Below the pieces are notes generated by a model. It was given only the letters and a program-made list of their open reading frames with translations, did no database searches and was not told the origin of the DNA. Positions 46,362-47,795 of a DNA stretch of 64,000 nt are shown here, one piece after another. This DNA comes from Curvibacter sp. PAE-UM (GTDB taxonomy: Bacteria; Pseudomonadota; Gammaproteobacteria; Burkholderiales; Burkholderiaceae_C): NCBI RefSeq assembly GCF_001432305.1, contig NZ_KQ483358.1, forward strand, positions 570,790-634,789, in the 5' to 3' direction. A program made the translations under genes and the position numbers. Every line of letters starts with the position of its first letter. Positions within the stretch are counted from its first letter, which is position 1.

Positions 46362-46437
46362 GCCATGTGGGTGACTGCCGGGGGCCTCATAGGCGCTGCG
46401 CTTTGCCAAATCGGCCCCCGGCAGTCACCCACATGGC
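46362..46437. repeat. hairpin I: perfect 25-bp stem with conserved 26-nt loop
   Basis: Arms 46362-46386 and 46413-46437 are perfectly complementary over 25 bp. The loop (46387-46412) reads TCATAGGCGCTGCG then CTTTGCCAAATC. Only the GGCC at the loop end and the loop itself recur in hairpin II, as reverse complement; the rest of the stem is unrelated. It lies between gcdH and the CoA transferase gene of one apparent transcript. No T-tract follows. Confidence 0.9.
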
Positions 46438-46481
46438 GAGAGGGGAAGTTTCTTCCAGGCGACGCGCCAAATACCTTCGCT

Positions 46482-46559
46482 GCTGAAGCGGGGCAGGGGT
46501 GGCGGCCGATTTGGCAAAGCGCAGCGCCTATGAGGCCGCCGCCCCTGCCCCGCTTCAGC
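46482..46559. repeat. hairpin II: 26-bp stem with the same loop in inverse orientation
   Basis: Arms 46482-46507 and 46534-46559 pair over 26 bp with one mismatch. The loop 46508-46533 is the exact reverse complement of the hairpin I loop. The stem sequence (GCTGAAGCGGGGCAGG...) has nothing in common with that of hairpin I apart from GGCC next to the loop. The 44 bp between the hairpins show no feature I can assign. Loop-loop pairing between the two is possible in the single-stranded state. Confidence 0.9.
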
Positions 46560-46598: not shown

Positions 46599-47795
46599 TC
46601 AGTTCGCAAACGCGGCAATGCCCGTCTGCGCGCGGCCCAGGATCAGCGCGTGGATGTCGTGCGTGCCCTCATACGTGTTGACCACCTCCAGGTTCACCAG
46701 GTGGCGGGCCACGCCGAATTCGTCGGAGATGCCATTGCCGCCCATCATGTCACGCGCCAGGCGCGCGATGTCCAGCGCCTTGCCGCAGGAATTGCGCTTG
46801 AGGATGGAGGTGATCTCCACCGCGGCCGTGCCCTCGTCCTTCATGCGGCCCAGGCGCAGGCAGCCCTGCAGGCCCAGGCTGATTTCGGTCTGCATGTCGG
46901 CCAGCTTCTTCTGGATCAGCTGGTTGGCCGCCAGCGGGCGGCCGAACTGCTTGCGGTCCAGCACGTACTGGCGCGAACGGAACCAGCAGTCCTCGGCCGC
47001 ACCCAGCGCGCCCCAGGCGATGCCGTAACGCGCCGAGTTCAGGCAGGTGAAGGGGCCCTTGAGGCCTTGCACTTCGGGGAAGGCGTTTTCTTCGGGCACG
47101 AAGACGTTGTCCATCACGATCTCGCCGGTGATGGAGGCGCGCAGGCCCACCTTGCCGTGCACGGCCGGGGCGCTCAGGCCCTTCATGCCCTTCTCCAGCA
47201 CGAAACCGCGGATCGGGCCGACGGCGCCGCTCTCGCTGACCTCCTTGGCCCAGACCACGAAGACATCGGCGATGGGGCTGTTGGAGATCCACATCTTGCC
47301 GCCGGTGAGCTTGTAGCCGCCGGCGGTCTTCTGCGCACGCGTGATCATGGAGTTGGGGTCGGAGCCGTGGTCGGGCTCGGTCAGGCCGAAGCAGCCGATC
47401 CACTCACCCGTCGCCAGTTTGGGCAGGTACTTCTGCTTCTGCGCCTCGCTGCCGAACTCGAAGATCGGCACCATCACCAGCGAAGACTGCACGCTCATCA
47501 TGGAGCGGTAGCCGGAATCGACGCGCTCGACCTCACGCGCGATCAGCCCGTAAGCCACGTAGTTCAGGCCCGGGCCGCCGTATTGCTCGGGGATGGTGGG
47601 GCCCAGCAGGCCCAGCTCACCCATCTCACGGAAGATGGTGGGGTCGGTCTTCTCGTGGCGGAAGGCCTCCAGCACGCGGGGCGCCAGCTTGTCCTGGCAA
47701 TAGGCGGCGGCGGCATCGCGCACCATGCGCTCGTCGTCGCTGAGCTGCTGGTCCAGCAGGAAAGGATCGTTCCAGTGAAAGGTGGCGTTGGCCAT
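46599..47795 (-). CDS. gcdH: glutaryl-CoA dehydrogenase
   Basis: FAD-dependent acyl-CoA dehydrogenase of 398 aa that oxidises and decarboxylates glutaryl-CoA to crotonyl-CoA in lysine and glutarate breakdown. The [32 protein letters not shown] pattern, [16 protein letters not shown] (flavin-side loop) and [20 protein letters not shown] (catalytic glutamate in YEGT) distinguish it as GcdH rather than a generic dehydrogenase. The start [11 protein letters not shown] is used because upstream frames run into the divergent promoter. The CoA transferase gene follows after the hairpin pair. Confidence 0.95.

Follow-up and report, generated by a model that had tools for sequence, protein, structure and literature searches.

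In the gap between a CoA-transferase gene and a gcdH-like acyl-CoA dehydrogenase gene of Curvibacter sp. PAE-UM, two long hairpins carry one core in opposite orientation on stems of different sequence. This arrangement raises the question of what keeps such stems paired while leaving their letters largely free, and of the strand and molecule on which the structure is read. The features of the locus are collected in Table 1 for the window, that is, the whole 64-kb stretch of DNA analysed.

Table 1. Features of the gcdH–CoA-transferase gap, in window coordinates
Feature	Position	Strand	Remarks
CoA-transferase family III gene, PF02515	45081..46331	-	neighbour, outside element
Hairpin element I	46362..46437	acting strand -	25-bp stem
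Hairpin I arms	46362-46386/46413-46437		25 nt, 100% complementary, 26 nt between
Core of element I	46387..46412	-	
Linker	46438..46481	no strand	44 nt, separating the inverted elements
Hairpin element II	46482..46559	acting strand +	26-bp stem, one T.G wobble
Hairpin II arms	46482-46507/46534-46559		26 nt, 96% complementary
Core of element II	46508..46533	+	identical to core I on other strand
Acyl-CoA dehydrogenase (gcdH-like) gene	46599..47795	-	neighbour, outside element

A scan of the window for 26-nt arms with at least 22 Watson-Crick pairs and a loop of 3–40 nt finds only these two sites, and folding z-scores of -6.7 to -11.8 indicate that the hairpins are not due to chance. The sequence-only reading had described a perfect stem for hairpin I, arms with a single mismatch for hairpin II and 26-nt cores that are exact reverse complements; remeasurement agrees on all of these, and the sole mismatch of hairpin II is a wobble on the plus strand. 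Its description of two real hairpins with unrelated stems holds largely, but the inverted match between them (46379-46419/46501-46541) spans 41 nt at 95%, so that a few inner stem bases are common to both. The GGCC that it took as constant on both sides of the core is one of several variants, GGGC/GCCC and GGGGT/ACCCC also being common in the family. The loop-loop pairing that it proposed is not favoured either, the two hairpins folding separately in a 241-nt minus-strand fold. A TTG-started open frame extends from the CoA-transferase gene into the core of hairpin I (window 46409).

Distribution, stem and core of the hairpin family

The core is not unique to this locus and recurs in exact and near copies in other genomes. 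A third copy in the same genome lies between aldehyde dehydrogenase and GMC oxidoreductase genes, and the exact core occurs in 10 copies across six public contigs, five from Curvibacter or Hylemonella and one from an uncultured beta proteobacterium. At up to three mismatches the core is present in 11 of 41 genomes (the own genome plus relatives) and in 11 of 399 family genomes, the own included, while a reversed control pattern has no match in either set. The hairpin family assembled here comprises 214 distinct copies with 66 distinct cores of 20 to 29 nt, one of which, of 20 nt, may be a chance match.

A covariance model (R1) built from 45 hairpins extends this distribution, with genome counts that are lower bounds because searches above 40 genomes used stricter filters. 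At E <= 0.01, R1 matches 20 of 26 genomes of the own genus, the own included, and 43 of 60 genomes of the related genus g103, with up to 27 matches per genome. At E <= 1e-4 it matches 40 of 299 family genomes (23 of 141 genera). At the level of the order it matches 5 of 300 genomes, two of them outside the family, and at the level of the class 1 of 369, which is the own genome. The matches are mostly 71-82 nt long with a GC content of 0.59-0.79. Genome G498 (L335), from a different taxonomic family within the order, has a hairpin that shares the GATTTCGA..CGTATGA ends and has a much longer, 57-nt core. No match is found in plasmids. Viral contigs hold a 17-mer of the core in 24 cases, none of them among the matches with at least 12/20 stem pairs, and lack both full core patterns; spread by viruses is rejected on these grounds.

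Pairing of the stems is maintained while their sequence changes. Among the 45 hairpins, whose rows were pre-filtered for at least 17/26 paired positions (leaving out L020 and L030), 96.4% of stem cells are paired against 60.3% after shuffling, with a double change in 481 of 1440 stem cells and a covariation of 0.848 against 0.173 shuffled and at most 0.146 in slid controls. The family scans demanded at least 20/26 paired positions, so that pairing of the copies is partly given by construction; the filter-free evidence consists of the flanks of core matches, exact and with up to three mismatches. Examined without a pairing filter, complementary flanks accompany every distinct exact-core copy shown, and the stems of two weaker-core copies, L020 and L030, are partly decayed; the stem test of core matches showed only those with at least 12/20 stem pairs, and L034 and L035 dropped out. 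Covariation is also seen at the gcdH locus alone, reaching 0.369 against 0.139 for hairpin II in nine genomes and 0.516 against 0.138 for hairpin I in six distinct rows, which shows that a stem can drift, through paired substitutions, without any change of locus. Together, the family-wide and single-locus covariation strongly supports the earlier suggestion of selection for structure with a largely free stem.

Stem length is nearly fixed, at 25-30 bp in 79 of 84 nonredundant elements (range 25-34) in a scan that itself demanded 26-nt arms. These 84 elements are separated only by stem difference (>14/52), and some orthologues remain among them; alignment A2, which has some wrong-strand matches, is kept out of all counts. 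The stem letters are not wholly free: G.C is preferred at pairs 15-17 from the core (57, 66 and 56 of 84), with G on the 5' arm.

The 26-nt stretch read earlier as an unpaired loop is itself folded, its pairs 4-23 and 6-21 covarying. On the acting strand the core runs from a 3x3 loop GAT/TGA through pair 4-23 and a mismatch to a short apical helix, and the internal loop is constant in the family as GATTT/TATGA or GATGT/TCTGA. Pair 4-23 (T-A or G-C) is present in 211 of 214 elements and the position-5 mismatch, T.T or T.C, is kept in 207. The core of element I, which reads GATTTGGCAAAGCGCAGCGCCTATGA on its acting (minus) strand, accordingly has a T4-A23 pair, a T.T mismatch and a 3-bp helix. 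Predicted folds of this core leave a 10-nt loop at the tip, energy models generally leaving most of the tip open; we read it as an AAA bulge followed by a GC-GCA-GC apical hairpin. The tip sequence varies between genera. A GNA triloop closed by two G/C pairs is present in 45 of the 66 cores and 187 of the 214 elements, against 4.3 cores expected from shuffled tips and one on the opposite strand. A pseudoknot of the 5' flank with the tip, judged by eye, is not general.

Mini-hairpins with a GNA loop and two or more G-C pairs are exceptionally stable in DNA form (PMC4686876). The GNA triloops are the main, though indirect, ground on which single-stranded DNA is preferred over RNA as the recognised molecule. 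RNA of the sequence GCGAAGC has a much less stable fold than its DNA, and tetraloops are usual in RNA; GNA loops can nevertheless form in RNA, which would also tolerate G.U pairs.

Strand asymmetry and genomic setting

Departures from Watson-Crick pairing are strongly asymmetric between the strands. On the GAT..TGA strand of the 84 nonredundant elements, G.T/T.G fills 144 cells and A.C/C.A 15, and 64 elements have more G.T whereas three have more A.C. In inverted pairs, each member shows this asymmetry on its own strand (G.T:A.C of 53:3 for left and 38:4 for right members), and it recurs in every gene context: 44:4 and 70:8 where both neighbouring genes run with or against the element, 60:3 in divergent and 29:5 in convergent gaps. 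The strand is thus a property of the element rather than of the surrounding gene, which suggests that the structure is recognised on a single strand belonging to the element and not as part of the gcdH–CoA-transferase mRNA.

Two explanations that dispense with a single-strand reader are weighed against these data. Replication template switching (quasi-palindrome correction) would copy changes from one arm to the other and keep the palindrome without any selection on the stem, and it would suit the scarcity of one-sided intermediates, most changes being double. The same process should erase the core mismatches, which are retained almost throughout at position 5, and offers no reason for own-strand G.T over A.C in both members of an inverted pair; we regard it as very unlikely. 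A double-stranded DNA site is given only a slim chance; here the palindrome, or a cruciform extruded from it, would be bound by a nucleoid or topology protein in the way that gyrase or IHF binds BIMEs. Inverted repeats, intergenic position, C-rich 3' flanks and the preferred G.C pairs within the stem are compatible with such a site, which nevertheless supplies no reason for a one-strand wobble asymmetry or for a triloop of the stable kind on one strand only.

The placement of copies relative to genes is not random. Adjacent copies are inverted in 36 of 38 pairs and share an orientation in two, with orthologues kept in the count. Orientation was taken from a simple gene caller, which counted 134 of 156 hairpins; 19 of the others were flagged as intragenic, partly through wrong starts, the remainder had no called neighbour, and the TTG-started frame at 46409 misled the caller. 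Among the 134, copies between co-directional genes are sense in 31 cases and antisense in 40; divergent gaps hold 40 copies and convergent gaps 23. Paired copies show a preference for divergent gaps (34 of 66), single copies one for convergent gaps (21 of 68).

At the gcdH locus itself, compared by eye in 23 g1 genomes (three further genomes are not comparable), seven carry the pair, two a single element (one of them decayed), two carry three elements and 12 have none. Neither an exact boundary nor a target duplication is visible at sites without an element. In genomes G012 and G021 (L249, L250) the gap holds three hairpins with three different tips.

These observations bear on a role in the host transcript, in which the hairpins would stabilise or attenuate an mRNA such as that of gcdH and the CoA-transferase, an effect put forward in the sequence-only reading. 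The window pair does sit between two co-directional genes, and strong hairpins commonly affect mRNA decay. As a general function, however, this idea is not supported: the unbiased sense and antisense orientation, the inverted pairs and the own-strand wobble argue against it, the wobble asymmetry being alike for sense and antisense copies and lying on opposite strands in the members of an inverted pair, and about half of the compared genomes do without the element at the locus. A U tract as in an intrinsic terminator is absent from the acting-strand 3' flank of 51 nonredundant elements, which is C-rich, not T-rich. Among the readings considered, we give this one the least credence.

Mobility and candidate partner enzymes

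The sequence-only reading had offered, as an alternative to selection, a process that makes inverted copies of flanking DNA around the core. Genome G453 speaks against it, three of its copies at different loci having 49-51 of 52 stem positions identical, which shows that a stem moves together with its element instead of being remade from the flanks; the stems at the gcdH locus, for their part, change by paired substitutions. De novo stem making from flanks is rejected on account of such stem-sharing copies. Across ten genomes, 16 of 337 within-genome copy pairs share at least 34 stem positions, against none under a null (mean 18.4 vs 24.0) that ignores which letters the stem prefers at each position; G453 alone contributes 10 of the 16 pairs. 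The G453 copies are parts of a mosaic repeat present in at least four partial copies (L182, L187, L188, L189); in L182, two inverted hairpins occupy about 290 nt, and in L187 and L189 a GTAG-tagged palindrome ending GCTTCAGCCCCGAC is added.

Copies also lie in frame within protein-coding genes. MmeI-like methyltransferase genes are present at threshold in 47 of 399 family genomes, and of 31 aligned homologues, 23 lack the stretch of about 180 nt that surrounds the hairpin in these genes; the other eight carry an insert, five of them with a hairpin-coded or hairpin-like peptide (in this count the misplaced row L322 is dropped, L314 and L321 represent one genome, and L285, which is G102, is excluded). 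In-frame hairpins at the MmeI-like linker are confirmed in G102, G382, G066, G378 and G390, and in the first two a further element, in antisense, lies at another place within that open frame. In L306 (G156) the matching peptide is present, but no hairpin passes the scan. The linker, between DAHRKRVL and LTLTGLYNVL, holds several kinds of insert, including PLPQGGEG-coding repeats (L269, L295, L297 and homologues).

The uvrA gene of G014 carries an in-frame inverted pair in a region of 134 residues, compared with 19 in PDB 2r6f, and G022 has a copy between two fused UvrA units. The UvrA genes L129, a tandem UvrA fusion, and L123 have in-frame hairpin elements in linkers. Together, the in-frame copies in MmeI-like and uvrA genes and the near-identical copies at different loci indicate mobility, which also agrees with the 12 of 23 compared genomes that have no element at the gcdH locus. 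The copies are apparently mobile elements for whose recognition folded shape counts more than letters. Their persistence at orthologous loci is compatible with parasitism and equally with a function for the host.

For the hairpin family, the analysis turned up neither a transposase nor any other partner. A RAYT-like Y1 transposase gene (PF01797) occurs at least once in each of 20 g1 and g103 genomes (L141-L169), six of which have no hairpins at the search threshold (E <= 0.01), and a search of 1.5 kb on each side of 29 RAYT loci in these 20 genomes yields one hairpin match, at E 0.99. Repeats resembling AATTAATTGGGGWCAGA, which form a family of their own, are present at several RAYT loci. RAYT is set aside as a general partner, being present in hairpin-free genomes, accompanied by other repeats and not located beside the hairpins. 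It could have moved the G453 composite, since the GTAG-tagged palindrome lies in two of the four mosaic copies.

The possibility that the element acts as RNA deserves separate consideration. Here the own-strand transcript would accumulate as a small structured RNA (a sponge, processing signal or regulator) bound by a protein at the internal loop. Tolerance of G.U wobble on one strand would suit this proposal, as would the 80-nt transcript bprJ1, antisense to both neighbours, that the paper on BRE, a possibly related repeat, reports from Northern blots (PMC3110155). Against it stand the upstream flank, in which nothing resembling a promoter is conserved (0.61 bit for C at -7 and no more than 0.18 bit at any other position), the unbiased orientation relative to co-directional genes, the triloops in place of RNA-typical tetraloops, and the in-frame insertions, which point to mobility. 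Rfam likewise gives no match at gathering score in 10 loci, the window locus matching only models below that score, all named miRNA. We consider an RNA element unlikely.

The explanation that we favour, and hold to be probable with some reserve, is that the two hairpins are inverted copies of a small, REP-like mobile element recognised by shape and probably acting as single-stranded DNA. Such an element would consist of 76-81 nt plus short flanks, without a gene of its own. An enzyme would recognise the folded single strand by internal loop, tip and stem length more than by stem letters, and would move or copy the hairpin, in the manner presumed for TnpA-REP and its REP hairpins. The recognised strand would be DNA rather than RNA, chiefly in view of the GNA triloops. 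More tentatively, and with considerable doubt, a non-RAYT recombinase may read the GATTT/TATGA loop and GNA tip on a helix of near-fixed length while largely ignoring the stem, which would make the family a new, ssDNA-shape-specified mobile class.

Relation to known repeats and significance

The sequence-only reading knew of no such element; REP/BIME sequences are a near analogue and BRE a possible relative. Like REP, BIME and REPIN sequences, the hairpins are short palindromes, mostly intergenic and sometimes intragenic, that form inverted dimers and mosaics, as in the predominantly inverted adjacent pairs and the G453 repeat. According to PMC8266576 and PMC3733652, REP is recognised as a folded single strand and on one strand only (REP, not iREP); recognition depends on a conserved stem mismatch but tolerates exchange of the upper stem and loop. 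The wobble asymmetry of the hairpin family would fit strand-specific single-strand recognition of this kind. The family differs from REP in its stem (25-30 bp and up to 34, against 5-13 bp), in widely variable stem sequence around a constant GATTT/TATGA internal loop, and in not lying beside a RAYT gene. GTAG lies within 12 nt of the 84 elements twice upstream and never downstream, CGTC twice and once. The hairpin family is not classed as REP, since GTAG tag, stem length and RAYT linkage all depart from it, and by analogy it plausibly works like REP.

The ends of IS200/IS605 elements offer a second parallel, an imperfect ssDNA hairpin being recognised there by mismatched bases and loop (PMC8266576, in the part available). 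The hairpin family is likewise an imperfect hairpin with mismatched bases and a loop; no adjacent transposase is seen and no guide or cleavage sequences are identified for it. A third parallel lies in in-frame insertion. Rickettsia palindromic elements (RPEs) insert in frame into protein genes, as the hairpins do in MmeI-like and uvrA genes. RPEs, known from Rickettsia, resemble one another in sequence over their full length, whereas the hairpin family shares only the core throughout.

The beta-proteobacterial repeat element (BRE) of Hot et al. 2011 is described, in the accessible text of PMC3110155, as a repeat of 75-91 bp, 63.7-78.9% GC and unknown function. The same text places it in Comamonadaceae and Bordetella, between genes and sometimes in coding sequences, in up to 29 copies and with a mobile-like character. 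Compared by description only, the hairpin family may be the same as BRE or overlap it. Size, GC content, hosts and coding copies agree with what that text gives for BRE, with a few hairpin copies below its 64% GC and the host group taken from the Curvibacter and Hylemonella contigs. By that account BRE is an aligned, conserved sequence in tandem arrays, whereas only two of the 38 adjacent hairpin pairs share one orientation, and the available description mentions no hairpin, core, free stem or strand asymmetry. The open literature searched, in the portions accessible, nowhere describes free stems around a constant core. If the hairpin family and BRE prove to be the same, the new findings would be the hairpin structure, its strand, the stem covariation and the in-frame insertions.

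Interspersed repeats in bacteria are usually detected, and assigned to classes, from their sequence. With a conserved part below 30 nt and a remainder constrained mainly to pair, elements of the present kind are easily missed by sequence search. The family provides a large natural covariation set that gives direct access to a putative recognised single-strand shape, a case in which shape-led recognition by a recombinase can be put to the test, and an instance of hairpins tolerated in frame inside DNA-repair and restriction genes. Should the shape-specified class be real, each copy would be free to drift to a stem of its own, and old copies would lose the homology needed to recombine.
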